Position numbers and translations under genes: made by a program. Under the pieces are notes generated by a model, which saw nothing but the letters and a program-made list of their open reading frames with translations, ran no database searches and was not told where the DNA came from. This document shows positions 36,357-62,408 of a DNA stretch of 64,000 nucleotides, in pieces. The DNA is from Polystyrenella longa. Its GTDB lineage: Bacteria; Planctomycetota; Planctomycetia; Planctomycetales; Planctomycetaceae. Position 1 is the stretch's first letter, and the number at the start of each line of letters is the position of its first letter. The stretch is taken from NCBI RefSeq assembly GCF_007750395.1, contig NZ_CP036281.1, forward strand, positions 3,681,001-3,745,000, written 5' to 3'.

Positions 36357-36790
36357 AGATGTCGATTCTATTTTGCCGAGGAGAATGTGAGCAGAAAAAT
36401 CCGAATCCAGGACAAGGATAGATAAGAACAGCGCTCGATGTCGATTATCATAGCGGCCTCACTGGGGGAGACCAACCTTGATAAATAAACGCCTGTTTGT
36501 ACAGGTAGTCGTCAGAATGGGGTCCTAAATCGCCGTAAATCCAGTTCGCCAGCAATTCTTACGTCATGAGGGTTGAAAAACAGCTTTCACCCGCTTACAT
36601 TCCCCAATTCAATTACAAAAACAGAAATCACCGTAAGTCTGTACAATTCGGTACACGAAGCCTTCGAGTATATTTCTCAATTTTAGTTTGTACTAAAGTT
36701 GAGTATGTGCTGAAGTTGAGTTTGTCTATCGGAATTAAATACGAATCTCGTATTGATCACCTTACAACTATCCTCAAGGAGAACAGCCGG
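36357..36790. other. Leader region of rpsD
   Basis: About 430 bases between the divergent ABC-2/CPBP gene and rpsD. It holds a 17-base period tandem (aagttgagtatgtgctg at 36696-36712, then aagttgagtttgtctat at 36713-36729) and a short inverted repeat (tgtac at 36640-36644, gtaca at 36651-36655). A frame runs into rpsD in phase from 36566, but the region has no SD at an earlier start. These elements could be promoter or autoregulation sites of S4; this is unproven. Confidence 0.4.
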
Positions 36791-37399
36791 ATGGGGCGCT
36801 ATACGGGCCCAAAGGGAAGAATCAATCGTCGTCTAGGCACGGCGGTGTTCGAGAATGCCGGAGCAACCCGCGCACTGGATCGACGCGATTTCCCTCCGGG
36901 GCAGCACACCCGACGTAAAAAAGTTTCTACCTACGGTCTCGCACTGCAGGAGAAACAGAAAATCAAATATTACTATGGCTTGCGTCAGGGACAGCTTCGA
37001 ATTTATTTCGATAAAGCACGTCGCACTAAAGGGAACACCGGCGAACAGCTGTTGATCCTTTGCGAACGTCGGCTGGACAACGTTATCCGTCGAGCTGGAC
37101 TGTGTAAAACCCGTCCACAAGCACGACAGGGGATTGCACACGCTCACTTCCAGGTAAATGGTCGGACTGTCAAAAGTCCTTCTTTCCTGTGTCGTCCGGG
37201 TGATGTCATTACTCTCCGTAACCGACCGGGTCTGGTAAAACTCTACAAAGAGATCGTCGAAGAAGTCGTGGGGCAACCCGCTGACTGGATCAACTCTGAT
37301 CCCAAAGGCTTAACCGCCACTGTCGCGACTTTACCTTCCTTTGAAGATGTCAGCCTGCCGGTAGAAGTCGGTCAGGTCGTCGCCTTCCTGTCTCGCTAA
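36791..37399 (+). CDS. rpsD: 30S ribosomal protein S4
   Basis: A primary rRNA-binding protein that starts assembly of the 30S body. The 202-residue chain begins MGRYTGPKGRINRRLG and contains the S4 RNA-binding domain, with RLDNVIRRAGLCKTRPQARQ (about 97-116) and the VNGRTVKSPSFLCRPGDVI segment. The N-terminal region lacks the zinc-type four-Cys cluster, so it is the zinc-free form. AAGGAG 9 bases before the ATG at 36791 fixes the start; the upstream in-frame extension is not coding. S4 stands alone here with its own terminator rather than in the rpsM-rpsK-rpsD-rpoA cluster. Confidence 0.97.
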   Translation: MGRYTGPKGRINRRLGTAVFENAGATRALDRRDFPPGQHTRRKKVSTYGLALQEKQKIKYYYGLRQGQLRIYFDKARRTKGNTGEQLLILCERRLDNVIRRAGLCKTRPQARQGIAHAHFQVNGRTVKSPSFLCRPGDVITLRNRPGLVKLYKEIVEEVVGQPADWINSDPKGLTATVATLPSFEDVSLPVEVGQVVAFLSR

Positions 37400-37698: not shown

Positions 37699-38451
37699 GT
37701 GATCCGACTTACTGCCGCTTTACTATTGCTGACTTTCTCGATGACAGCCGTCACCAGTGCTGTTGCCGACGAAATGCCAGTCCATACGCTGCCAGTCGCC
37801 GATTTGAAATCGGAAGCTGACTTCAACGTTCAGTATGTTACTGAAGTACTGGAAAAGCTGGAGAGCGATGACAAATACGATGACGTGAAGAAAAAAGTCA
37901 AACGCGCAGGCGCAACGCTCGCTGTCGTGGCTCAGGTCATCGCCACACATCCCGATGCTGAATCTGCCGGCGTAGCCGCCGCTGATCTGCGAGATGCAGG
38001 AATCGCCATTCGTGACGCCCAGGACGCCGCCGCCGCCAAAGCAGGACTGGCATCCGCCATCAAAGCCTACGCCGGTGAAGCCAGCGGAACCGCCGTCAGC
38101 GAACATGAGTGGAAAGGTCTGATCGGAATGCACGACATGATGGAAGTGATCACCTATCGCTCCAGCCGACTCCGCCGTGGTGTCCGTCGTCTCCGCGAAC
38201 CTCAGGAAGACAAACTGCACGCAGTTGCAATTGCTGTTCTTTCTGTTCCCATGGAAGCAGACACACACGAAGTCAAAGACGAAACACTCATTCCCGAGTG
38301 GCAGAAGATGTCTAAAGCGTCTCAGGACCTCGCTGTAAAACTGGCCAAAGCCATGGCCGAAGAAAACGAAGAAGAAGCTCAGGATTTATACAAGTCCTTG
38401 GGAGAAACCTGTAAAGCCTGCCATACTCAATTCCGCCACGAAGAAGAGTAA
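37699..38451 (+). CDS. Exported cytochrome c'-like protein with one heme site
   Basis: A 250-residue periplasmic protein with a signal peptide (about 1-24, cleaved near AVADEM). The single c-type heme site CKACHTQFRHEEE lies at the extreme C-terminus, the position and style of cytochrome c' (CxxCHxxFR). The body is almost wholly helical, with Ala- and Lys-rich amphipathic segments. At 250 residues it is about twice the length of a classic cytochrome c', so the N-terminal half may be a second helical bundle without heme. The GTG start has GGGAG 8 bases upstream; an earlier TTG is less likely. A bidirectional terminator follows. Confidence 0.8.
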   Translation: MIRLTAALLLLTFSMTAVTSAVADEMPVHTLPVADLKSEADFNVQYVTEVLEKLESDDKYDDVKKKVKRAGATLAVVAQVIATHPDAESAGVAAADLRDAGIAIRDAQDAAAAKAGLASAIKAYAGEASGTAVSEHEWKGLIGMHDMMEVITYRSSRLRRGVRRLREPQEDKLHAVAIAVLSVPMEADTHEVKDETLIPEWQKMSKASQDLAVKLAKAMAEENEEEAQDLYKSLGETCKACHTQFRHEEE

Positions 38452-38490
38452 GCTGCAGCTTAAGAGAGTTTGTTCTCCAACAAACCACAG

Positions 38491-38530
38491 AAAAGCCGGT
38501 GCTGAGCAACGCTCAACACCGGCTTTTTTA
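38491..38530. terminator. Bidirectional intrinsic terminator
   Basis: aaaagccggtg and caccggctttt flank an inner stem tgagc/gctca. Six or more T follow on the plus strand and four on the minus strand. It serves both the cytochrome gene and the convergent PQQ-repeat gene. Confidence 0.92.
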
Positions 38531-38563
38531 TTTCAACAGACTTAACAGACCAAACAAAGAAGT

Positions 38564-39832
38564 CTATTCCTGCTCAACACAGAACAAGGACTTATTCGTT
38601 CTTAAAAAGATTTGTCCGTTCGAAAATGCGGGAGTAGAATTTGAACGTTCGTCGAAAGTGTTCACAGCAATTTCCTGGAACTCATTCGGGTTGGCGGCAA
38701 AAACAATCGTGGACCCATCTTTTGCAGTGGCATAGATACGCCCATCTGCCATGACCGTCGCTCCCCAGTAGTCGTCCGTGCCACGGGTCTTCCACTGCTC
38801 TTCCCCATCATTCTTCACGTCGATGCATTGAATGATTCCGGGCCCCGCATTGGCCATATAAATATAATCGCCAACAATGACGCCTGTACTGACACGAGAT
38901 GGCTGTCGTTTCGGTGTGTACCAGATACGATTCGACTCGGTAGCATCTCCTTCGCCGGTCAGCGTAAATCCGAGAGCAGGCCCTTTATACCCTCCCATGG
39001 CAACTCCGATGGAATCCCCAATCGCGGTCGATGAATACACCAGATCGCCACGTTCACTGGGCAAACCGCCAACGAACCATAGCTCCTCCCCTGACTGGGG
39101 ATCTAATGCAAGCACACGACTGGGCATGCTGCAGACAAGTTGATTTTTGCCGTCGACTTTAACGATGACAGGTGTACTCCAGGAACCAACTTTCTTTCCA
39201 CTCAGGTCATCCGTTCCACCCGGTTCGTCTTTCTTCCAGACTTCTTCGCCATCGGAAAGCGTTAATGCCACCATGAAGGTATTTTCACCCGGCCCATAGA
39301 ACTGATAGACCTTGTCTTGATAGATCACTGGTGACGAACCATAACCCCAGACATGTTTAACCGGTCCATAGCTTTTGTGCCAAAGCTCATTGCCCGAGTG
39401 ATCATAACAATAGATACCCGGAGTTCCATGCCAGACAACAACACAGTCCTCATTGGCAGCTGGGGTAGTGCCTGCGTACGGATTGGTCTGGTGAGTCTCT
39501 TCATTGGGTTCGGATTGAACCACTTTATTCCAGAGTTCATCGCCGGTATTGCGATCGAAACAGTGCAAGGTTCGTTCCGAACCATCTTCATTAGCCGAAG
39601 TGACATACACAAGCCCATCAATGGCGATGGGACTGCCGTTGCCATCACCGGGCAACTCCGCTTTCCATTTTAAGTTTTTCTCACTGCTCCATTCGGTCGG
39701 GTAGGCAGCATCGGTTGCCACTGCGTTCGCCATCCCCCCCCTGAAGCCGGGCCAATCAGCCCCTTCTGTCGTAATGCCAGAACCAATGGCGAGAAGTAAC
39801 CCCGCACTCATAATCGCGACCTGTCTCAACAT
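38564..39832 (-). CDS. Exported PQQ-type beta-propeller protein
   Basis: A secreted 422-residue protein with a signal peptide over about residues 1-24, then repeated blade motifs such as GLVYVTSANEDGSERTLHCF, GIYCYDHSGNELWHKSYGPV and RVLALDPQSGEELWF, about six to seven blades of the PQQ-like (BamB/pyrrolo-quinoline quinone) kind. No dehydrogenase catalytic Asp/Ca motif is clear, so it is most likely a non-catalytic propeller as in many planctomycete outer-surface proteins. Two ATGs occur at 39835 and 39832; the SD spacing (GAGG) fits the second. It lies downstream of the ALDH gene by 150 bases. Confidence 0.85.
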   Translation of the reverse strand: MLRQVAIMSAGLLLAIGSGITTEGADWPGFRGGMANAVATDAAYPTEWSSEKNLKWKAELPGDGNGSPIAIDGLVYVTSANEDGSERTLHCFDRNTGDELWNKVVQSEPNEETHQTNPYAGTTPAANEDCVVVWHGTPGIYCYDHSGNELWHKSYGPVKHVWGYGSSPVIYQDKVYQFYGPGENTFMVALTLSDGEEVWKKDEPGGTDDLSGKKVGSWSTPVIVKVDGKNQLVCSMPSRVLALDPQSGEELWFVGGLPSERGDLVYSSTAIGDSIGVAMGGYKGPALGFTLTGEGDATESNRIWYTPKRQPSRVSTGVIVGDYIYMANAGPGIIQCIDVKNDGEEQWKTRGTDDYWGATVMADGRIYATAKDGSTIVFAANPNEFQEIAVNTFDERSNSTPAFSNGQIFLRTNKSLFCVEQE

Positions 39833-39982
39833 CATTCTTCCTCTTTTCCGAATTAGTTTTTAGACATCACCTACAACAAACGTGAGTGCGTTGCAGAAGA
39901 CGTTATCCTCAATCAGGACAGCTTGTTTATTATCCTGACGAATATCACATTGCACAAGCGAAGTTTGCAAACCGGAGCCTGT

Positions 39983-41341
39983 TCAGGCGATCCATACAGT
40001 CTTCACATTGACGAATTCATGAATGCCTGGTTTTCCCAATTCGCGACCGTACCCGGAATTCTTGATACCACCAAAACTGATTCTTGGATCGGACTTCACA
40101 ATCTCATTCACAAAGACGGCACCACTTTCGATGCGGGGAACCAGCTTATCCGCAAGCTCAATATTTTTCGTCCAGAGGGAACCGCCGAGTCCGAAACTGG
40201 AATCATTCGCCAACTGAATCGCATGATCAACGTCATTCGCTTCAACTAAAACAGCTACCGGCCCGAACATCTCTTCTTGGAACGCGATGTTATCTGGTTT
40301 GATATTCTCCAGAAGCGTAGGAGCATAATAACTGCCGACTCGGTCCAGCGGTTTTCCGCCACATACCAGTACACCTCCCTGCTGCACACTCTTTTCGACC
40401 TGGGTGTGTAGTTCTTCACGAAGGTCCTGTCGCGCCATCGGGCCGATATCGGTCGCTTCATCCAACGGGTCACCGACTTTCAACGATTCGATCCTAGAGA
40501 CGAGAGCATCCTTGAACTCCTTTATGATCTCGGTCTGCACGATAAACCGTTTCGCTGCAATACAGCTCTGGCCCGTGTTCTGCATCCGTCCTTTAATAGC
40601 TTTTGCAGCGACATCGTCGATATCGACATCGGCCAGGACTATAAAAGGATCCGAGCCTCCCAACTCCAAAACAGATTTCTTAATCTGCTTGCCCGCCTGC
40701 CCTGCAACTGCTCGGCCAGCCTCTTCGCTGCCTGTTAAGGTAACCGCTTTGATATGCGGACTGTCGATAACTTTTTCAATCGCGGAAGATTTCAGGGGCA
40801 ATGTCGACCAGACATGCGGAGGAAACCCAGCCTCCTCCGTCAATTGTTGAATCGCAATCGCGCAACCTTGCACATTGGAGGCATGTTTTAACAGGCCAAC
40901 ATTTCCTGCCATCAGATTCGGAGCCAGAAAACGAAAAACCTGCCAGAACGGAAAGTTCCAGGGCATCACGGCTAGTACAGGGCCCAGTGGGTCATAACGA
41001 AAGTAGCTGTGACTGGCAGACGTCTCAACGGGAACAGGTTGCAGAAACTCTTCCGCCCGCTCCGCATAGAATTCGCAAACTAAGGCACATTTCTCGATTT
41101 CGGCGGTTGATTCCGAAATCGGCTTTCCCATTTCATTGGTGATCAGCCTGGCATAGATCTCCTTGTCGGACTTCAATCCGCTTGCCAGATTGAGCATCAT
41201 TTTCTTGCGACTATCGAAAGACGTCTCACGCCATTCTTTATACGCATTCGCAGAGAATTGAAGCTGCTCCGTGACTTGCTGCTCAGTCCAAACCGGATAC
41301 TCCCCGATCAATTCTCCATTCGCTGGATTGATGGACTTCAT
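39983..41341 (-). CDS. NAD(P)-dependent aldehyde dehydrogenase (succinate-semialdehyde type)
   Basis: A 452-residue oxidoreductase of the ALDH family that oxidises a semialdehyde to the acid. The catalytic Glu is in LELGGSDPFIV (about 227), the Cys in NTGQSCIAAKRF (about 261), with AVMPWNFPFWQVFRFLAPNL (about 119-138) in the cofactor fold and GPVAVLVEANDVDHAI near 355. The MKSINPANGELIGEYP start is characteristic of succinate-semialdehyde dehydrogenases. GGAGG about 6 bases before the ATG marks the start. It is 37 bases downstream of the M24 gene, so it is very likely in the same operon. Its substrate may be set by that pathway (see findings). Confidence 0.9.
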   Translation of the reverse strand: MKSINPANGELIGEYPVWTEQQVTEQLQFSANAYKEWRETSFDSRKKMMLNLASGLKSDKEIYARLITNEMGKPISESTAEIEKCALVCEFYAERAEEFLQPVPVETSASHSYFRYDPLGPVLAVMPWNFPFWQVFRFLAPNLMAGNVGLLKHASNVQGCAIAIQQLTEEAGFPPHVWSTLPLKSSAIEKVIDSPHIKAVTLTGSEEAGRAVAGQAGKQIKKSVLELGGSDPFIVLADVDIDDVAAKAIKGRMQNTGQSCIAAKRFIVQTEIIKEFKDALVSRIESLKVGDPLDEATDIGPMARQDLREELHTQVEKSVQQGGVLVCGGKPLDRVGSYYAPTLLENIKPDNIAFQEEMFGPVAVLVEANDVDHAIQLANDSSFGLGGSLWTKNIELADKLVPRIESGAVFVNEIVKSDPRISFGGIKNSGYGRELGKPGIHEFVNVKTVWIA

Positions 41342-41378
41342 TGTTCCCTCCTATTCTGGTTGACGGAACAGCGGTCAG

Positions 41379-42482
41379 TTAATATCCGGTGGGAATCGTG
41401 GTTATCTTTTCGAGCCCCGACTCACCAAGATAATAAACTTCTTCGATCCGCAGTCCCCCTTTGAGTTCATCGTGATACAGACCAGGCTCGACTGTAAACA
41501 AATCTCCGACCTCGAAATAATCGTCCCATTCAGGATTCAAATGAGGTGCCTCGTGTGGAGAAAGACCGAGCCCATGACCGAGGTGGTGCGGAAACGACCA
41601 ACCTCGATAGTCATTGAGACTATTATAGGCGTTTTCGTAAACTTCGCGGCAACTGACCCCGGGACGCACCGAGGATTCGACCAGTTGAATGGCCTCCAGC
41701 ACCTGCTCACGCGCTTCCTCCTGGGCAGCAGAGGGACTATCCACGGCTATCGTCCGGCACATATCGCTACGATACCCACGACACTCGACACCCAGGTCGA
41801 TGACGGCTAACTCGCCCGATTCGGCCGGGCGATAACGAGGTAATCCCCCCCCTTCCCCACAGCGGAAGTCGTTCCCGAAGAAACCGAAATGTTCTCCTTG
41901 AAGATTGCCCAGAATCTGCATCATTCCTGCGTACAACTCGACTTCGGTAACACCCACTTTGAGATTTTCACGCACGTACTCATAGGCTGCTTCCGTTGTC
42001 TGAAACAATCTTTTGAAGAGTTCGATTTCGTCGTCATACTTTCGGCGTCGCTGTTTTAATATTGCCGGATACAGGTCGACCTGCTCGATCCCCTCCACGG
42101 GAAGCAATCCGGGACGGATACCGAAGTCGACGCCCAGCCTTTTCACATTGTGTAATTCGGTGGACAACTCGAGCAGGCTGTTTTGCAGTTGCTCTTCCAC
42201 CATCGTCGCGACTTTGTTGAAAATATAGTTCTTCTTAATGTCAACCGCCGTGGGCCAGTCGCATTCGAACGGCATGACCAGAGTCCGCACGCCATCACGA
42301 GTCATCAGGAACAAGGGTGCAAAAAAAGGACGTTCCCAGTAAGCGGCGTAATAATGCACATGTCGTGGATCGCCAATTAAGACGGCATCCAACTGTTGCT
42401 CTTCCATCAAGCGTACGAGGTGCTGTTGTCGCTCTTCGCAGGATTTAACGGATAAAGTGGGAATTGGCGAGTGGACTTGCAT
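41379..42482 (-). CDS. M24 metallopeptidase family protein (Xaa-Pro aminopeptidase/creatinase fold)
   Basis: A 367-residue pita-bread fold enzyme. The five metal ligands are present: two Asp in VIDLGVECRGYRSDMCRT (about 227-244), His in FPHHLGHGLGLSPHE (about 298-312) and two Glu in FTVEPGLYHDELKGGLRIEE (about 331-350). The N-terminal half is the creatinase-like domain. Members hydrolyse Xaa-Pro peptide bonds, but others open cyclic or amidine substrates (creatinase, ectoine hydrolase DoeA). AGGA 8 bases before the ATG supports the start. It is flanked by an RraA-family gene and an ALDH, and the AspA-family gene diverges beyond, which suggests small-molecule catabolism rather than peptide digestion. 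Confidence 0.9.
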   Translation of the reverse strand: MQVHSPIPTLSVKSCEERQQHLVRLMEEQQLDAVLIGDPRHVHYYAAYWERPFFAPLFLMTRDGVRTLVMPFECDWPTAVDIKKNYIFNKVATMVEEQLQNSLLELSTELHNVKRLGVDFGIRPGLLPVEGIEQVDLYPAILKQRRRKYDDEIELFKRLFQTTEAAYEYVRENLKVGVTEVELYAGMMQILGNLQGEHFGFFGNDFRCGEGGGLPRYRPAESGELAVIDLGVECRGYRSDMCRTIAVDSPSAAQEEAREQVLEAIQLVESSVRPGVSCREVYENAYNSLNDYRGWSFPHHLGHGLGLSPHEAPHLNPEWDDYFEVGDLFTVEPGLYHDELKGGLRIEEVYYLGESGLEKITTIPTGY

Positions 42483-42505
42483 AGTCGTATCCTGTGATGC
42501 TCTAC

Positions 42506-42537
42506 TTAAGTGTTAATAATGTTAAGTGTTAATAATG
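42506..42537. repeat. Perfect 16-bp tandem duplication before M24 gene
   Basis: ttaagtgttaataatg occurs twice in direct tandem (42506-42521 and 42522-42537) in the 87-base gap between the RraA-family gene and the M24 gene. In the transcribed direction it lies just upstream of the M24 start. It could be an operator pair or a recent slippage duplication. Confidence 0.8.
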
Positions 42538-42569
42538 TTTCCAAAGATACTGATTCAGTGAATCAGAAC

Positions 42570-43220
42570 TTATAAAACACCGAATTTTTCATAGGCTTCG
42601 GTCGCTTTCATTCCTGCTTTGATCGCATCTCGGGTCACGTTTTCAGCGTTAATTTTTCCCCAGGCATCCTGCAACACCTGCAATTCGACTTGCCGGGGAA
42701 CCACGACCACACCATCAATGTCAGCCATCACCAGGTCGCCCGACTCGAACCGAACACCATCGATCTCCACAGGGACATCATATTCAACAACCCGTTGCCG
42801 GTGCTGAGAGTCGTAAGGGGAAGTTCCGGCGGCATAAACAAGAAAGTCCATTTCCCGCATCTGGCGAACGTCTCGAACGCACCCATTAATGAGTGCACCG
42901 ACACAACCCTGGTTCCGTGCTGCGGTGGAGAGTAATTCTCCCCAAATCCCCGATCGGCGAGAGCCTTGAGCAGCAGCGATGATGACATCGTCCGGCTGAC
43001 AGGAATCAACCGCTTTGAGTTCCTGCTCGTAGGGGTTCGGATCTTCGTGAGCCATATCCATCCACAAAGTGGTCTTACAGCGTCCCACCAGCGGACGGTC
43101 CACTGTTAATGGTCGCAATTCAATGCGGGGCGACTGATGCCGAAACCCCAGACTATCCAACACATCACATAAAACAGCGGTATAAAATTTTTCGCGGATT
43201 AACTCCAACGTGATTTCCAT
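42570..43220 (-). CDS. RraA-family protein (aldolase or ribonuclease regulator fold)
   Basis: A 216-residue RraA/MenG-fold protein. Typical marks are DVIIAAAQGSRRSGIWGELL (about 77-96), ALINGCVRDVRQMREMDFLV (about 110-129) and GDLVMADIDGVVVVPRQ near 160-175. Family members either bind RNase E or act as class II aldolases on 4-hydroxy-4-methyl-2-oxoglutarate-type acids. Given its neighbours, an enzymatic role is the better guess here. The gene is the first of the minus-strand unit RraA - M24 - ALDH. No strong SD precedes the ATG. It is divergent to the AspA-family gene with about 250 bases between. Confidence 0.88.
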   Translation of the reverse strand: MEITLELIREKFYTAVLCDVLDSLGFRHQSPRIELRPLTVDRPLVGRCKTTLWMDMAHEDPNPYEQELKAVDSCQPDDVIIAAAQGSRRSGIWGELLSTAARNQGCVGALINGCVRDVRQMREMDFLVYAAGTSPYDSQHRQRVVEYDVPVEIDGVRFESGDLVMADIDGVVVVPRQVELQVLQDAWGKINAENVTRDAIKAGMKATEAYEKFGVL

Positions 43221-43471
43221 GAGATGACTCGATTTCTATACTGGGTGGTTCCTGCCAGATCATGTCGTCCGACCAGATTCTGAATAAGCTGCATCCTAGC
43301 ATGAGTGGTACAATTATTTGTAGCCTCCGTCAGTACGTATGATCATACGAGTCATTATTTAAGTCCCCACACTGTTCCCTCAATCCTACGAACCTTTCTG
43401 GAATACTGCAAAGTTTTCTCAAGCTGATAACAATGCTGTCCCTTCCATCGCTTCTGAATGAAAGCTCAACC

Positions 43472-44482
43472 ATGTCGCTATCAAAAATCGAAATCACCGG
43501 GCAACATGAAGGGCCGCATCTGTTGATCACGGGTGGTGTTCATGGAGACGAGTTTGAACCGATGGTGGCGATCCAGCGATTGGAAACGTACCTCTCTACG
43601 AGAACTACCGGACTCCATGGAAGAGTGACATTGATTCCGATTGTTAATGAAGCGGCTTTCGCACGTGGTTCACGAACTGCCGACGATGAAAAAGACCTCG
43701 CACGAACCTGCCCCGGAAATGCTGAGGGAACCATCACCGAGCAGATCGCCGATCAATTGACTGCAGAGATTCGACAAGCGGATTGTTACATGGACCTGCA
43801 TACGGGCGGCACACGGATTGCGGTCTATCCGCTGACTGGTTACATGCTGCACACGGATCCCAAAGTATTAGAGACATCACGCCGTATGGCACAGGCGTTT
43901 GGGCTTCCCGTCGTCTGGGGAACAACACCGAACCTCGATGGCAGGTCTCTTTCAATCGCAAGAGAGGTTCCCATCCCTGCGATATACACTGAATATCTGG
44001 GGGGAGGAACATGCTCACCGCGCGGAGTCAGGGCTTACATACAAGGATGCCTGAATGTCCTCCATGAGCTTCAACTGCTGGAGGGCGATGCCCCCCGACT
44101 CGACCCGGGAACCTCACGTGAGTTCGTGCAATTGACTATCGAAGACGACCGGGAACAAGCGGGCCATATGCAGATCAATCACCCGGCTTCGCGGGCTGGT
44201 TTATGGACGCCCGAAGTCGAATTGGGCAGCTACGTTGAGAAGGGAGAAAGATTGGGAACCATCGCTTCTGCAGATGGAAAACAGCAATCGGAAGTCGTCG
44301 CTAATCAGACGGGATTGGTACTGGTGCTGCGTACATTTTGTTATGTCGCTCAAGAAGAGTTTCTTGCAGTCATCCTGGAACCACCGACGGAGGAAGCCGG
44401 CTCAATGATGCAACAGATTTCAAAACATCAACCCTTGTTTATGCATTCCGTCTCCCTGAATCAGCTGCTAGACTGTAATTAG
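43472..44482 (+). CDS. Succinylglutamate desuccinylase/aspartoacylase-family deacylase
   Basis: A 336-residue zinc hydrolase of the AspA/AstE (M14-like) family that removes an acyl group from an N-acylated amino acid. The zinc ligands are His and Glu in LLITGGVHGDEFE (about 17-29) and the later His in CYMDLHTGGTR (about 104-114). The pattern GRVTLIPIVNEAAFARGSRT with a following TCPGNAEGTITEQIAD resembles ectoine-pathway DoeB-type deacetylases more than aspartoacylase. ATG at 43472 is used; a start at 43433 would add 13 residues, neither has a strong SD. It has a C-terminal beta-domain with GLWTPEVELGSYVEKGERLG, as in this family. It diverges from the RraA gene. Confidence 0.85.
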   Translation: MSLSKIEITGQHEGPHLLITGGVHGDEFEPMVAIQRLETYLSTRTTGLHGRVTLIPIVNEAAFARGSRTADDEKDLARTCPGNAEGTITEQIADQLTAEIRQADCYMDLHTGGTRIAVYPLTGYMLHTDPKVLETSRRMAQAFGLPVVWGTTPNLDGRSLSIAREVPIPAIYTEYLGGGTCSPRGVRAYIQGCLNVLHELQLLEGDAPRLDPGTSREFVQLTIEDDREQAGHMQINHPASRAGLWTPEVELGSYVEKGERLGTIASADGKQQSEVVANQTGLVLVLRTFCYVAQEEFLAVILEPPTEEAGSMMQQISKHQPLFMHSVSLNQLLDCN

Positions 44483-44530
44483 TAACTGCCCCAACTTCCC
44501 ACCATTTAACCAATGCCCCCGAGGAAATTG

Positions 44531-45922
44531 ATGCTCCGTCTGCTGCGACCCGCTGTTGTATCTTTCCTGATTCTAAGTAGCTGTACTTTCCTTGCGGCCG
44601 CTGAATGGCAAGCCGGTTTGTCGAAAGCAGCCATCACACCACGCAAACCGGTATGGCTTTCGGGATACGGTGGACGTGATCGCCCCGCAGAGGGAAAAGT
44701 CCACGACCTCTTTGCCAAGGCTGTTGCGTTTCAGTCGCCTTCCGGCACACGCTTAGTTCTGGTGACCACGGACCTTGGTTCCATGTCTCCCGAGATTTAC
44801 AATCACGTACTTCGGCAGGCCGAAAGTCAGTGGAAACTCGGTCGTGAAGCATTGGTCATCAATGCCTCCCATACTCATTGTGCCCCGGAAATCTGTGCCG
44901 AACGTCGTGTCTTTCACAAACTGACTGACCAGGCCGAAGCCGATCTCGTTGATTACATCGACAATCAACTAAAACCGACACTCGTTAAGCTGGTAGGCGA
45001 TGCGCTCGCCGACTTGAAACCGGCGCAACTCAGTGTGAGTCAGTCGGCGGCCTACTTCGGTAAAAGCCGGCGGTTCCCCACGACTGAGGGCGAATTCATC
45101 AACCAGCGGAACGACGCTGGAATTACAGACAACACCGTTCCCGTCCTGAAGATTACAGGGCCAAAGGGGAAACTCCGCGGTGTACTGTTTGGATATGCCT
45201 GCCATAACACGACATTGGCTTTCTATCAGTTTTGTGGAGACTACGCCGGTTTCGCCCAGTACGACATTGAAGAGCAGCATCCAGGGGCAGTCGCGATGTT
45301 TGTGATGGGCTGTGGTGGTGATCAGAACCCATACCCTCGCCATGGTCCGAATGGTCTGAACTATTGCAAACAGCATGGCCGTGAACTGGCTGACGCCGTC
45401 CTTACTTCCCTTAAGGGGCCGCAACTGGCAATCAAAGGGGAATTGCAAGTCGCCTCAACCGATGTAACACTTGATCTGGAACCACTGCCTCCTTTGGAAA
45501 CGATTCGAACTCAAGCGGAAGGTGGTCAGGAAACTCCGACATCTCGCAAAGCCAATTATCTACTTAAGCAAATCGAAACTAATGGACAGGTCGATTTAAC
45601 TCAGAACTGCCCGTTGAATGTCGCCCGGTTTGGCGACGATCTACTGTTTGTGTTTGTAAGTGGCGAAACGGTTCTTGATTACGCCCGTCTCTGTCAGTTC
45701 GCCTTTGGCGGACAGATGGTCTGGGTCGCCGGTTATAACAACGATGTCTTCGCCTACCTTCCTTCCCAGCGAATCTTGCTGGAAGGTGGCTATGAAGGGC
45801 GAACGGGCATCATCCACCAACTGACCCCGACTCCATTCCTGCCTACGGTAGAAGATAGGGTCATGGGTGGAATTCGGCAATTGGTCGAAAAAGTCTCTCA
45901 ACCCGTACCAGTCACAAAATAA
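44531..45922 (+). CDS. Secreted neutral-ceramidase-like protein, copy 1
   Basis: A 463-residue exported protein of the neutral/alkaline ceramidase N-terminal family. The signal peptide is about residues 1-27 (ending LAAAEW). Zinc-ligand positions are preserved: His in NASHTHCAPE (about 119), His in FGYACHNTT (about 229), Glu in FVSGETVLDYARL (about 380) and Tyr in GYNNDVFAYLPS (about 417). The usual nucleophile motif GDVSPN reads GCGGDQNPYPR, so the serine is replaced by Asn. GAGG six bases before ATG at 44531 supports that start. A paralogue follows on the same strand. The enzyme may hydrolyse another N-acyl or ester substrate. Confidence 0.85.
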   Translation: MLRLLRPAVVSFLILSSCTFLAAAEWQAGLSKAAITPRKPVWLSGYGGRDRPAEGKVHDLFAKAVAFQSPSGTRLVLVTTDLGSMSPEIYNHVLRQAESQWKLGREALVINASHTHCAPEICAERRVFHKLTDQAEADLVDYIDNQLKPTLVKLVGDALADLKPAQLSVSQSAAYFGKSRRFPTTEGEFINQRNDAGITDNTVPVLKITGPKGKLRGVLFGYACHNTTLAFYQFCGDYAGFAQYDIEEQHPGAVAMFVMGCGGDQNPYPRHGPNGLNYCKQHGRELADAVLTSLKGPQLAIKGELQVASTDVTLDLEPLPPLETIRTQAEGGQETPTSRKANYLLKQIETNGQVDLTQNCPLNVARFGDDLLFVFVSGETVLDYARLCQFAFGGQMVWVAGYNNDVFAYLPSQRILLEGGYEGRTGIIHQLTPTPFLPTVEDRVMGGIRQLVEKVSQPVPVTK

Positions 45923-46016
45923 GAAACCAAGCCGCCGATCCTGTAGCATTCGTTGGCTCCACCAGAAGGTTTTCGTTTCAACTTTAATAATACCCTATCG
46001 ATTGAGTTTTCTATCC

Positions 46017-47429
46017 ATGATGTTCCTGTCTCGTATTCGTGTACTGACCGTCGCAACCGGCCTGCTTTTGATCGTCTCTCTGTTCGCTGGATCAGTAGAG
46101 GCTCAGGCTGGTTGGAAAGCTGGCCTGGCTGAAGCCAATATCACTCCCGAGACAGCCATGTGGATGGCGGGCTATGGTGGACGCTCCAAACCAGCCACCG
46201 GTAAACGACAAGACCTCTGGGTGAAAGTCGCCGCCATCGAAGACGAATCTGGAAACCGAGCCGTCATCTTCAGCACCGACTTATTAGGAATTCCCCAGTC
46301 CATTTACAACAACGTCTGTGCAGAATTAGAGAGCAAACATCAGCTCAGTCGTTCGCAGATCATGCTAAACAGCTCACATACCCATAGCGGCCCCGTCTTG
46401 AGAGGAGCGTTACATGACATCTACCCATTGGACGAACATCTATTAGATCTGATTGAAGACTATTCCAACAAACTAGAGAACACACTCGTCAATATTGCAG
46501 GTGAAGCGTTGGAGAGTTTGGCACCGGCGACGTTAAGAGCAGGAAACGGGTCTGCCGACTTCGCCGTGAATCGCCGAAACAACAGCGAAGGGGCCGTCCC
46601 TTCCTTGCGAGAAAAAGGAGAAGCTCTGGCTGGCCCCGTCGACCATGATGTTCCTGTACTGGCGATTTACAATGACAAAAAGGAACTTACTGCCGTCATC
46701 TTCGGTTATGCTTGTCACAATACAGTCATGGGTGACTATCTGTGGCATGGAGACTACGCTGGCTTTGCACAGGCCGCATTCGAAGAGAAACATCCGGGAG
46801 TAACCGCTCTATTTTACATGGGCTGTGGTGGCGACCAGAATCCCATTCCCAGACGCGAAGAAAAACTACTGACCGTGTATGGCGAAAAACTGGCCAACGC
46901 CGTCGATCAGGTTGTCAGCGATGATAGCCAATTGACTACACTTTCGCCCAAGCTTGAAACAACACATCAGTTTGTCGAACTCCATCTCGCCGATCAGCCC
47001 ACTGCAGACGAACTACAGGAGATCATCGATAACCCCAATCGAGCGGAATATCAGAAACGGTGGGCGTCCCGTCTGCTGAAAGAAATGGAAGACGGAACCA
47101 CTTTCGTAACTAGCTACCCGCTTCCTATTCAAGCCTGGGAACTGGGCGACCAGCAATTGTGGTTAACGATTGGTGGCGAAGTAACCGTCGACTATTCGCT
47201 GGGCTTCAAAAAGATGTTTGGCAAGCAAACCTGGGTGGCCGGATACTGCAACGATGTCCCCGCATATATTCCTTCGCTGCGAGTTCTGGAAGAAGACAAA
47301 GTAAAAATGGGCTACGAAGGCCACAGTTCCATGATGGTCTATGGGCTTCCCGCATTTCGCTGGGCCGACGATGTCGAAGACCAGATCGCCAATGGCATGA
47401 CTGAACTTGTTAAACAGGTCCGGCCTTAA
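46017..47429 (+). CDS. Secreted neutral-ceramidase-like protein, copy 2
   Basis: A 470-residue paralogue of the preceding gene with its own signal peptide (about residues 1-29). The same zinc ligands appear: His in SSHTHSGPVLRG (about 121), His in FGYACHNTVM (about 239), Glu in GGEVTVDYSLGF, Tyr in GYCNDVPAYIPSLR (about 417). The nucleophile segment reads MGCGGDQNPIPRRE, again with Asn for serine. Copy 2 keeps SHTHSGP, closer to genuine ceramidases than copy 1 (SHTHCAP). Two adjacent ATGs (46017, 46020) are possible starts with no good SD. The intergenic gap is 94 bases, so they may be co-transcribed. This is a tandem duplication that has diverged. Confidence 0.85.
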   Translation: MMFLSRIRVLTVATGLLLIVSLFAGSVEAQAGWKAGLAEANITPETAMWMAGYGGRSKPATGKRQDLWVKVAAIEDESGNRAVIFSTDLLGIPQSIYNNVCAELESKHQLSRSQIMLNSSHTHSGPVLRGALHDIYPLDEHLLDLIEDYSNKLENTLVNIAGEALESLAPATLRAGNGSADFAVNRRNNSEGAVPSLREKGEALAGPVDHDVPVLAIYNDKKELTAVIFGYACHNTVMGDYLWHGDYAGFAQAAFEEKHPGVTALFYMGCGGDQNPIPRREEKLLTVYGEKLANAVDQVVSDDSQLTTLSPKLETTHQFVELHLADQPTADELQEIIDNPNRAEYQKRWASRLLKEMEDGTTFVTSYPLPIQAWELGDQQLWLTIGGEVTVDYSLGFKKMFGKQTWVAGYCNDVPAYIPSLRVLEEDKVKMGYEGHSSMMVYGLPAFRWADDVEDQIANGMTELVKQVRP

Positions 47430-47562
47430 AGACCGCGTCTGGGTTCCAGAGGCGAGGTTGGATAGAACATATCGCATGTAACCGTGGTGGGTTCTGGCTG
47501 CTTAAAATCACGTTTGTGAAAACTTCTCGTGTTCTGTAGCCGCTAAACTTTCCTGGAAAAAT

Positions 47563-49893
47563 TTAGAACTCGAACTTTGCCCAGTAGATTTGCTGTCGAT
47601 CGTATCTAGTCCGATAGTCATCCAGGATGACCTCGATATCGGGCTCGATCAGTTCCTTGAGCTTCTGGCTGCCTTTGACCTTCAGGATCAGTTGCTGATT
47701 GAAGTCATGCAGCTGGGGAGAAATGTAGAAGGTGTGTCCGCTACCCAGAGTCTTGGTGACCTGTAAGGTCGTGCTGTCGCCCTTATGACTGGTCAGTTTC
47801 GCTTCCAGCGGCACAGTTCTTCGGCGTGAAGATAACCTCGCGAGTTGGACTTCTAGCCCTCTGCATTCGATCCAGTCGACTTTGACTTCATCCTGAGGGA
47901 CAAACGCCTCGTATTCTATTTCCAACTGATCGAGATTCCGGTTTTGCAGCGCCATCCAGTCAAACAGTTGGACCTGCTCCTCGCGATACCACTCCGAGAC
48001 ACGATTAGGATACTGGGCATAAATCAGATCACTATTCCCCTGAAACATCTTGTTTAACAACGCAGAATGGCGACCGTCATATTCGCCCCCCACAAGATAC
48101 CAAGGCAATCTCTTGCCATTCTGCCAGTAATGAAGAGCATCTTCGGCATGTCGCCCGCGAATGCTGATGACTCCTGCGAAAAGATCGGGATGCAATATTC
48201 CGGCATCGATTGCCGCATCGCCGCCATCCCCAATCCCGGCGATGAACACCTTATCTGAATTCACAGAAAACTGACGTCGAACTTCCATCAATGCCTGATG
48301 AATCCGTTTGAGTTCTAGAAGATTGTGGTTATAGCGAAGCCCCTGCGTTACCTGAAATTGAGGCACCACCAGCAAGTAACCTCGACGTAAAGTCTCGCCC
48401 GTTTCCTCAGCAGTCCCCCCCCACCATTCGAGAAAGGTCTGAGGATCAATTCCGGTAGGTGGCAATGCAAGCAGTACCGGGTATTGCCGAAAGGGAGAAT
48501 ATTCCAGAGGTGGCAGTACCGAGTATTTCATCTCGTTGTCCTGATGATCGCGCAGGGTCAAATCGACCTGTGTCCCCCCAGTAATGGGAGTATCGGAAGG
48601 AACGGGGGGAAGATTTTGCAATAAAGCGGTCAGCCGCTCCGCGTTCAAGCTTTCGATCGATTTGATTTGATTGACGAGCTGGGCATCATGTTCGCGGGAT
48701 CTCAGGAAGTCATACACGAGAAACCGAGCCTGCCATAAATTTAAAGTCAGCTGCAAATCGTCAACTGCTGCTTCCGCCCCCAGTATCCAACCGGAATAGG
48801 CGAGGGCCAGCCTTTCTTCTGCAGTCAGCGTGGCATCTTTCTCCAGTTCAAAGAATGAATTCAATCGAGGAAGCGATGCCTGAGAGAGTTCTTCTGATAC
48901 GATTCGCCGAATCAGGTTCAGCTTGGGATCTTCCTCGTGATTGGCCAGTTGACTTTGCAGTTCCGCAAGAATGAGCGGCGTCGAATCCAACCTTTCGAGG
49001 TCAGTCGCATATTGTTTAATAAACTTATCAATTTCAAACAGCACTTCGGGAGCTATATCATTTCGTGGCAAAGCTTGGGCGGATTCATAGGCCAAGTCGT
49101 ACTGACCCAGTTGGCGCCGGGTCTGGATTTCATTGAAGAGCTTTAACGCCAGTTGCTCTCGAATTTCGAGCCGGACGTCCTCGTATTCTTTACCATCGGT
49201 TGCGTATTTTTCTGTAAGTTCATCAAGGAACTGATAGGCCTCGTAAGTTTTATCCGCCTGAATATAAAAACGAGCGATCGAACGCTGCATTTTGGGATCA
49301 TCAATATCGGCAGACGAAAGCAGTAGCTTGTGCAGAATTGCGGGCGGAATGGAGTCTGTACTGAGAGTGACATCCCATTCGTAATTGAGGCCCTGAACTT
49401 TAACATATCGGGGATGCAGAAACGTAATGCCTTGAATAACCAGTATATTGCCGCGTGAAGTATGAATAGTGACTTCACGTTGACCTAGTTCATCAAAGGG
49501 GGTGATCTTTCCAACACCTTGTAAGAGCTTCAGCGGAATCGATTTGCGTCCAGATTTCACCTGCGGGATTTTAAAAATATCAAAAGCGGATAAGAGGTCG
49601 CTTTTCACCGTCCGACCATCAACTGCCAGCAGGTCATCGGAGATATAGTAGGTCCGAATCTGGTCATCAACCTGGATAATCGGGTTGTACCGAAATTCGC
49701 CCTCTTTTCGAGGATCACCGATGTTTCGCTGGTTCGTATTTACGATGTACTGATCGATACTGCGAATCAGCTTGCTATCACCTCGAAGAACAAACCCATT
49801 CTCCAAACGAATCTCGTCTGCAGAACTTAATGGAGCAAATACGCCCATCATCAGGAAGGCGATTAAAACAGAATTGGCAAATTGAGATTTCAT
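47563..49893 (-). CDS. Large secreted protein with nucleophile-less alpha/beta-hydrolase domain
   Basis: A 776-residue exported protein, signal peptide about residues 1-25. Residues 25-200 hold strand-rich segments around RLENGFVLRG and VTIHTSRGNILVI. Residues 200-420 are mostly helical, TPR-like. From about 450 to 660 there is a PHB-depolymerase or prolyl-oligopeptidase-like domain: VLLALPPTGIDPQTFLEWWG, then GYLLVVPQFQVTQ, and the elbow FIAGIGDGGDAAID (about 551), where the G-x-S-x-G serine is Gly. GGEYDGRHSALLNKMF (about 605) would hold the acid. The C-terminal 90 residues are beta-rich. Convergent with the ceramidase pair. Confidence 0.75.
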   Translation of the reverse strand: MKSQFANSVLIAFLMMGVFAPLSSADEIRLENGFVLRGDSKLIRSIDQYIVNTNQRNIGDPRKEGEFRYNPIIQVDDQIRTYYISDDLLAVDGRTVKSDLLSAFDIFKIPQVKSGRKSIPLKLLQGVGKITPFDELGQREVTIHTSRGNILVIQGITFLHPRYVKVQGLNYEWDVTLSTDSIPPAILHKLLLSSADIDDPKMQRSIARFYIQADKTYEAYQFLDELTEKYATDGKEYEDVRLEIREQLALKLFNEIQTRRQLGQYDLAYESAQALPRNDIAPEVLFEIDKFIKQYATDLERLDSTPLILAELQSQLANHEEDPKLNLIRRIVSEELSQASLPRLNSFFELEKDATLTAEERLALAYSGWILGAEAAVDDLQLTLNLWQARFLVYDFLRSREHDAQLVNQIKSIESLNAERLTALLQNLPPVPSDTPITGGTQVDLTLRDHQDNEMKYSVLPPLEYSPFRQYPVLLALPPTGIDPQTFLEWWGGTAEETGETLRRGYLLVVPQFQVTQGLRYNHNLLELKRIHQALMEVRRQFSVNSDKVFIAGIGDGGDAAIDAGILHPDLFAGVISIRGRHAEDALHYWQNGKRLPWYLVGGEYDGRHSALLNKMFQGNSDLIYAQYPNRVSEWYREEQVQLFDWMALQNRNLDQLEIEYEAFVPQDEVKVDWIECRGLEVQLARLSSRRRTVPLEAKLTSHKGDSTTLQVTKTLGSGHTFYISPQLHDFNQQLILKVKGSQKLKELIEPDIEVILDDYRTRYDRQQIYWAKFEF

Positions 49894-60453: not shown

Positions 60454-60863
60454 CCGCGACCCCTTGAGACTTGTGACCCTGAGCAGTTCGTTCCCAATCA
60501 AGTCAGTTTACCCAGTAACTGAAATGACGCGTCCCCTCACATTGAAAGGACTGTGATTGGTTCGGTGATGCTTGCTCTGCGCCGAACATTACAATTTTAC
60601 ATACTGTTGACCTCGCGTCAAGCAATCGCTTTTTTTCCGGGCCATTTGGAGGACATCATAAATCAATTGCCTGCAAGACATTAATTCATCTCCTGATCGT
60701 TAAGGTAGTCTGTTTAAGGAATAATTTACCCGATCTTCTAAATCGGAAAGTCGTGACAAACTCCCCCGGATACCGCAACTTCTAATTTATGGCGTTTTTT
60801 TAGACAGCAACATTCAGTTGGCAAACAATTTCGGTTGCCCTCTGCTGATAGAATTTACAAAAT
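60454..60863. other. Intergenic region between dnaG and thrC
   Basis: About 410 bases carrying divergent promoters for dnaG (minus) and thrC (plus). It is AT-richer than the genes. I see no RNA gene or strong hairpin. The start of thrC is uncertain, so its right boundary may be later. Confidence 0.35.

Positions 60864-62408
<1,545 letters not shown>

Follow-up and report, generated by a model that had tools for sequence, protein, structure and literature searches.

Does the planctomycete Polystyrenella longa degrade ectoine with a four-gene locus that combines an M24-fold metallohydrolase, an AspA/AstE-family deacylase, an aldehyde dehydrogenase (ALDH) and an RraA-family protein, or do these genes serve another substrate? 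The locus lies in a 64-kb stretch of contig NZ_CP036281.1 (positions 3,681,001 to 3,745,000; here called the window, whose own numbering is used for its features), and an earlier note on this DNA had read it as a possible ectoine pathway with RraA supplying an extra step. We observe that M24, RraA and AspA form a recurring planctomycete set, the ALDH excepted, and we hold with about even confidence that these three make up the local portion of a planctomycete catabolic module whose substrate is not ectoine but another amide-linked or N-acylated amino compound. The earlier note was right to allow for another substrate of N-acyl or amide type.

The arrangement itself is as first described, with RraA, M24 and ALDH genes in one minus-strand run separated by gaps of 87 and 37 bases and the AspA gene divergent from them, and Pfam matches bear out the family assignments of all four proteins. 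The open reading frames (ORFs) fall at the following positions:

39983 to 41341, minus strand: ALDH, Sad/PRK09406-like, 452 amino acids; ORF with Pfam match Aldedh (1e-134)
41379 to 42482, minus strand: M24-fold metallohydrolase; ORF with Pfam matches Peptidase_M24 (7e-39) and Creatinase_N (7e-6)
42570 to 43220, minus strand: RraA-family protein (class II pyruvate aldolase/decarboxylase-like); ORF with Pfam match RraA-like (2e-35)
43221 to 43432, no strand: intergenic region of 212 bp separating the divergent RraA and AspA genes
43433 to 44482, plus strand: predicted AspA/AstE-family (DoeB-like) zinc deacylase; ORF with Pfam match AstE_AspA_cat (4e-26)

The ATG at 43472 may be the true start of the AspA gene. 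GC content of the four genes is 0.50-0.53, against 0.505 for the window.

Co-occurrence was assessed in 170 Planctomycetaceae genomes, with genes counted as linked when within 10 kb and with simple ORF calls at related loci. AspA is present in 105 of these genomes, RraA in 118 and M24 in 35. Of the genomes with M24, 33/35 also carry AspA (Fisher p 3e-6; genus level 9e-4) and 32/35 carry RraA (p 1e-3; genus level 8e-3), and AspA and RraA occur together in 85 genomes (p 6e-5; genus level 2e-3). In addition, AspA and RraA are linked in 7 of the 85 genomes having both (0.25 expected, Poisson p 9e-9), or in 4 of 33 when collapsed to genera (p 3e-6), and M24 and AspA are linked in 6 of 53 (0.16 expected, p 2e-8). 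Outside the family (about 256 genomes, an estimated number), AspA remains associated with both M24 (odds ratio 6.0, p 3e-6) and RraA (odds ratio 6.7, p 6e-7). The full M24-RraA-AspA cluster is seen in G000, G001 and G018, and the head-to-head AspA/RraA pair is kept in four genera (G000/G001, G018, G011 and G182-G184). Gene content, conserved co-occurrence and linkage are here direct observations.

Conservation of the four-gene neighbourhood, which the earlier note proposed to look for, holds for these three genes and not for the ALDH. Close ALDH homologues are present in 20 of the 170 genomes, and the window genome is the one case in which such a homologue is linked to M24, RraA or AspA. They show no co-occurrence with M24 (p 0.25) or AspA (p 0.23) and a weak one with RraA (p 0.04). 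On the same-genus G001 contig, a PQQ (pyrroloquinoline quinone)-type gene adjoins M24 directly, with no ALDH or ALDH fragment in between. Being linked nowhere else and absent from the same-genus locus, the ALDH was rejected as a member of the conserved set. By sequence it is a succinate-semialdehyde-type enzyme: PRK09406 is its best family (561 bits, below the cut-off of 730), and it matches PDB entry 4it9 at E 5e-143. It is best taken as a local, lineage-specific addition that is probably co-transcribed with M24 and RraA here and may still serve the pathway in the window genome.

Compact sets are also found in other families (G403, G235, G199, G421, G423, G409, G286 and G262), with an MlrC-type M81 hydrolase, a threonine-synthase-like pyridoxal phosphate (PLP) enzyme (PALP), a short-chain dehydrogenase/reductase (SDR) and an aminotransferase, either glutamate-semialdehyde-aminomutase-like or class IV, as partners. 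In G403 and G235, M24 is divergent from an RraA-family gene, and AspA, MlrC, PALP and aminotransferase genes lie alongside. The RraA proteins by M24 in these genomes (L238:6698-7366 and L239:6985-7899, respectively) are of another subfamily, with 27-29% identity to the window type and, in G403, a motif of G-X20-R-D-X2-E type, and are thus evidence that an RraA-type step is needed but not of orthology; a formamidase-type gene adjoins RraA in G403. The gene order is PALP-AspA-class IV aminotransferase-M24 in G199 and RraA-MlrC-AspA in G421 and G423, and G409 displays PALP-SDR-AspA-MlrC close to RraA together with an IclR-type regulator. Within Planctomycetaceae, RraA adjoins MlrC in 10 genera and M24 adjoins Gfo/Idh and SDR genes in 3, while AspA adjoins an SDR in 15 genera, an HpcH/HpaI-type aldolase in 8 and RraA in 4, so that a pyruvate-aldolase-type enzyme recurs next to AspA. 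The M81 proteins, regular partners in related genomes, differ from the MlrC microcystinase itself in that their scores, 125-153 bits, fall below its cut-off (999).

As a separate observation, many Planctomycetaceae have their RraA orthologue head to head with an M81 gene of MlrC type (L140, L141, L131, L209, L210, L219 and L224), and at several RraA/MlrC loci a threonine-synthase-like PLP gene adjoins MlrC.

The M24 protein scores 22 bits against the DoeA (ectoine hydrolase) model TIGR02993 (cut-off 613) and 45 bits against NF038259 (cut-off 575), compared with 839 bits for the positive control, S. meliloti EutD (pSymB), and no match above the DoeA cut-off turned up in 40 related genomes, which include the window's own. 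A 69-protein M24 tree places it within a planctomycete clade of 33 rows, separate from the group of known and annotated EutD/DoeA rows, each with 100/99 support (bootstrap not fully settled). All five metal ligands (D229, D240, H303, E332 and E347, in VIDLG, SDMCRT, GHG, VEPG and RIEE) are intact and invariant across the clade, whereas most are replaced in EutD (FFEIAG, PLSRT, HFMTGLW), whose mechanism we take from the sequences of solved structures. Model scores, the separate clade and the retained ligands together weigh strongly against DoeA/EutD as the identity of this protein.

The conserved M24 histidine preceding the first ligand, present in PepP, PepQ, YpdF and EutD, is absent from the window clade, which carries a GGxPR segment at this site with GG and R216 invariant; the placement of a four-residue gap decides whether R216 or G212 aligns with the histidine position. 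The protein does not group with the true Xaa-Pro peptidases (PepP/PepQ/YpdF), the EcPepQ branch being long and unsure in its placement. It shares the pita-bread fold and full ligand set of the creatinase/prolidase/aminopeptidase P superfamily, and its AlphaFold2 model (predicted local distance difference test [pLDDT] score, 92) lies nearest to creatinase (Z 35) and prolidase (Z 34); the fold cannot decide function, because creatinase, prolidase, EutD and DddP all fall within about 5 Z units. We assign the protein, on scores and phylogeny, to its own planctomycete clade, apart from the ectoine hydrolases and from the true Xaa-Pro peptidases. Searching the genome contigs with it returned a single close relative. 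Two further planctomycete lineages appear in the tree: a second M24 family (L014-L030), sister to the window clade and also without the histidine (GGLPT/GGPPT segment), and the protein L157 (G010:C485:8433-9572), which branches basally on the EutD side and scores 134 bits against TIGR02993 (cut-off 613).

The AspA protein has a sole substantial NCBIfam match, the DoeB model TIGR02994, at 98 bits against a cut-off of 402.7 (the positive control, EutE, reaches 654), and scores 18 bits against the AstE model. Its structural model (pLDDT 92) matches the DoeB-group structures 3na6, 6twm and 3cdx at Z 33-34 (for EutE 6twm, Z 33.3 and 2.2 A over 293 residues at 27% identity), with lower matches to CphZ (Z 27), AstE (Z 17-18) and mammalian aspartoacylase (about 18). 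On both fold and model score AstE was rejected, and the earlier view of the protein as DoeB-like rather than AstE-like stands. The zinc ligands and catalytic glutamate (H37, E40, H123 and E187) are invariant in its clade. However, EutE, AstE and the other planctomycete paralogues examined all have an Asn-Arg pair (LNR or MNR), which in this clade is Ala-Arg, within a DLAR motif (A90, R91) found in every member examined. In M14/aspartoacylase enzymes, the Asn-Arg pair holds the substrate carboxylate. In a quick tree, the clade forms one side of a branch with a Shimodaira-Hasegawa-like approximate likelihood ratio test (SH-aLRT) value of 92, with long-branch warnings and a very long AstE branch. 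DoeB was rejected as the identity of the protein on its score below the cut-off and the changed pair, and predicted structure and sequence comparison make it DoeB-like in fold, not DoeB. Intact metal and zinc sites and clade-specific active-site changes are thus observed in the M24 and AspA proteins.

The RraA protein shares the superfamily fold and the catalytic Arg-Asp pair with 4-hydroxy-4-methyl-2-oxoglutarate/4-carboxy-4-hydroxy-2-oxoadipate (HMG/CHA) aldolase and the RraA-like pyruvate aldolases/decarboxylases. Its clade has an invariant R116-D117 pair, and in 33/33 rows a glutamate, E95, lies 21 residues ahead of R116 (E95-X20-R116-D117). HMG/CHA aldolase instead has a D-X20-R-D motif, reportedly described by Mazurkewich in 2014, with Asp where the window clade has Glu, and the protein scores 83 bits against the HMG/CHA aldolase (LigK/PcmE) equivalog (cut-off 304.5). 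These conserved residues point to a probable enzyme, of class II pyruvate aldolase/decarboxylase type, instead of an RNase regulator. Arg-123 is indispensable to HMG/CHA aldolase, and the motifs occur in most RraA homologues (PMC5065237).

The presence side by side of enzymes that hydrolyse amides, PLP enzymes and aldolases of pyruvate type fits a pathway that takes apart an amide-linked or N-acylated amino compound step by step, and since active-site positions differ from those of the ectoine-degrading enzymes, the substrate is probably another amide or N-acyl amino compound. From the protein families we infer the substrate class, the catalytic steps and their order. A metal-dependent hydrolase (M24 here, M24 and/or MlrC-type M81 elsewhere) would break one of the substrate's C-N bonds, and the DoeB-like zinc deacylase would strip an acyl group, freeing an amino acid for conversion to a 2-oxo acid by PLP enzymes, whose genes are linked in other genomes and not in the window. 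RraA, as a probable class II pyruvate aldolase/decarboxylase, would split this 2-oxo acid by C-C cleavage or decarboxylation. In the window genome, the succinate-semialdehyde-type ALDH could oxidise the aldehyde product; FlDet is a precedent for an enzyme of the RraA family that supplies an ALDH (PMC8563752).

Such a scheme resembles the Doe/Eut pathway of ectoine degradation (DoeA-DoeB-DoeC-DoeD; EutABCDE) in its M24 enzyme, AspA-type deacylase and succinate-semialdehyde-type ALDH and, in planctomycete relatives, in a fold-type II PLP enzyme and an aminotransferase. However, every window member tested comes from another subfamily: the M24 enzyme retains its metal ligands and is without the histidine, the AspA protein has the fold and zinc site of DoeB/EutE (N2-acetyl-2,4-diaminobutyrate deacetylase) with Ala for Asn, the ALDH is not conserved, and the planctomycete MlrC and RraA have no counterpart there. 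With somewhat less than even confidence, we put forward an undescribed planctomycete route for a common amide-type natural compound, which would use the Eut/Doe recipe of M24 hydrolase, DoeB-like deacylase, PLP enzymes and an optional semialdehyde dehydrogenase with other subfamilies, MlrC-type and RraA-type enzymes added and two clade-specific active-site changes. No pathway pairing RraA with M24 or with AspA was found in the open-access literature.

Several points weigh against a shared catabolic module. M24 is linked to RraA and AspA in just 3/35 family genomes, and outside the family M24-RraA co-occurrence is absent (odds ratio 0.9, p 1), which suggests that the tie between these two may run only through AspA. 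The genomes are not independent, and the co-occurrence tests account for phylogeny by genus collapse only. The 64-kb window, to which the search was confined, holds no homologue of the MlrC, aminotransferase, SDR, HpcH or PhyH genes that neighbour M24, RraA and AspA in other genomes; its sole PALP match (60852-62405) is distant, at 24-28% identity, as is its sole Gfo/Idh match, at 22-24%. Finally, we found no characterised enzyme in the M24, AspA or RraA clades, and sequence does not give the substrate.

Among other explanations, the locus might serve peptide scavenging, with M24 as a prolidase or aminopeptidase variant that trims unusual (iso- or D-) peptides together with MlrC-type and AspA-type enzymes, RraA being only loosely connected. 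The best PDB sequence matches of M24 are indeed Xaa-Pro dipeptidases, MlrC belongs to a microcystin-peptide hydrolase family and often adjoins RraA and AspA, and CphZ, structurally near AspA, is a cyanophycin-dipeptide hydrolase. However, M24 lacks the histidine of PepP, PepQ and YpdF and stands apart from them in the tree, and the recurrent neighbours are aminotransferases, PLP lyase-like enzymes and aldolases, not peptide importers, which leaves this explanation unlikely. Alternatively, the genes may share no pathway at all and encode hydrolases of general purpose and a pyruvate-type aldolase that are adjacent by chance or through shared regulation. This would agree with the scattering of the three genes in most family genomes and the missing M24-RraA association outside the family; we judge it distinctly unlikely, as linkage far exceeds expectation, the same partners return in other families and co-occurrence persists at the genus level.

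A sugar-acid route, in which RraA acts as FlDet (2-keto-3-deoxyglucarate to 2-oxoglutarate semialdehyde), the ALDH oxidises the semialdehyde and M24 and AspA are bystanders, has a precedent for an RraA-family enzyme with an ALDH in the RraA-like FlDet, which feeds alpha-ketoglutaric semialdehyde (alpha-KGSA) dehydrogenase (PMC8563752), and here ALDH and RraA do share one run. It is nevertheless improbable, since the ALDH scores only 304 bits to alpha-KGSA dehydrogenase against 561 to the succinate-semialdehyde model, its linkage to RraA is confined to the window genome, and RraA is repeatedly linked with amide hydrolases.

Ectoine or hydroxyectoine catabolism with an extra RraA step shares the superfamily recipe, the PLP-dehydratase-type and aminotransferase genes of relatives and the nearest AspA folds, and ectoine is made by some planctomycetes (PMC5924519; PMC13342039), but we consider it highly improbable given the M24 and AspA scores, the retained M24 ligands, the Asn-to-Ala change, the lack of a DoeA match above the cut-off in all 40 genomes and a window without homologues of the eut-type transporter, EutB, EutC, the regulator or other pSymB eut-region genes, generic ABC ATPases excepted. 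The earlier note would have abandoned ectoine had M24 grouped with Xaa-Pro peptidases and AspA with AstE; both stand apart from those groups, yet they are neither DoeA nor DoeB. Ectoine consumers were at first assigned to Proteobacteria in surveys (PMC5924519); a later paper, in which we found no mention of Planctomycetota, added other phyla (PMC13188858).

Scanning the locus for promoter-like sites and terminators gave nothing above chance, including in the 212-bp divergent region, and an Rfam search of window positions 38000-48000 gave no match. Downstream of AspA, two tandem neutral-ceramidase-like proteins are encoded on the plus strand (44513-47429), starting 30 bases after the AspA gene, and the order AspA-Cer1-Cer2 is also seen in G001 and G002 of the same genus. 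Cer1 matches Pfam Ceramidase_alk and has no NCBIfam match. These proteins may share the theme of the locus, because by family they are also N-acyl amide hydrolases. On the other side, a ribosomal protein S4-like ORF (36566-37399, plus strand) was called with a long N-terminal extension, and its true start is probably downstream.

If the catabolic module for a non-ectoine amide-type compound is real, it would give functional context to three protein clades common in Planctomycetia. It would also call for caution in annotating their members as ectoine hydrolase, N-acetyl-diaminobutyrate deacetylase, Xaa-Pro peptidase or RNase regulator, and the two clade-specific substitutions offer direct test points for substrate specificity.

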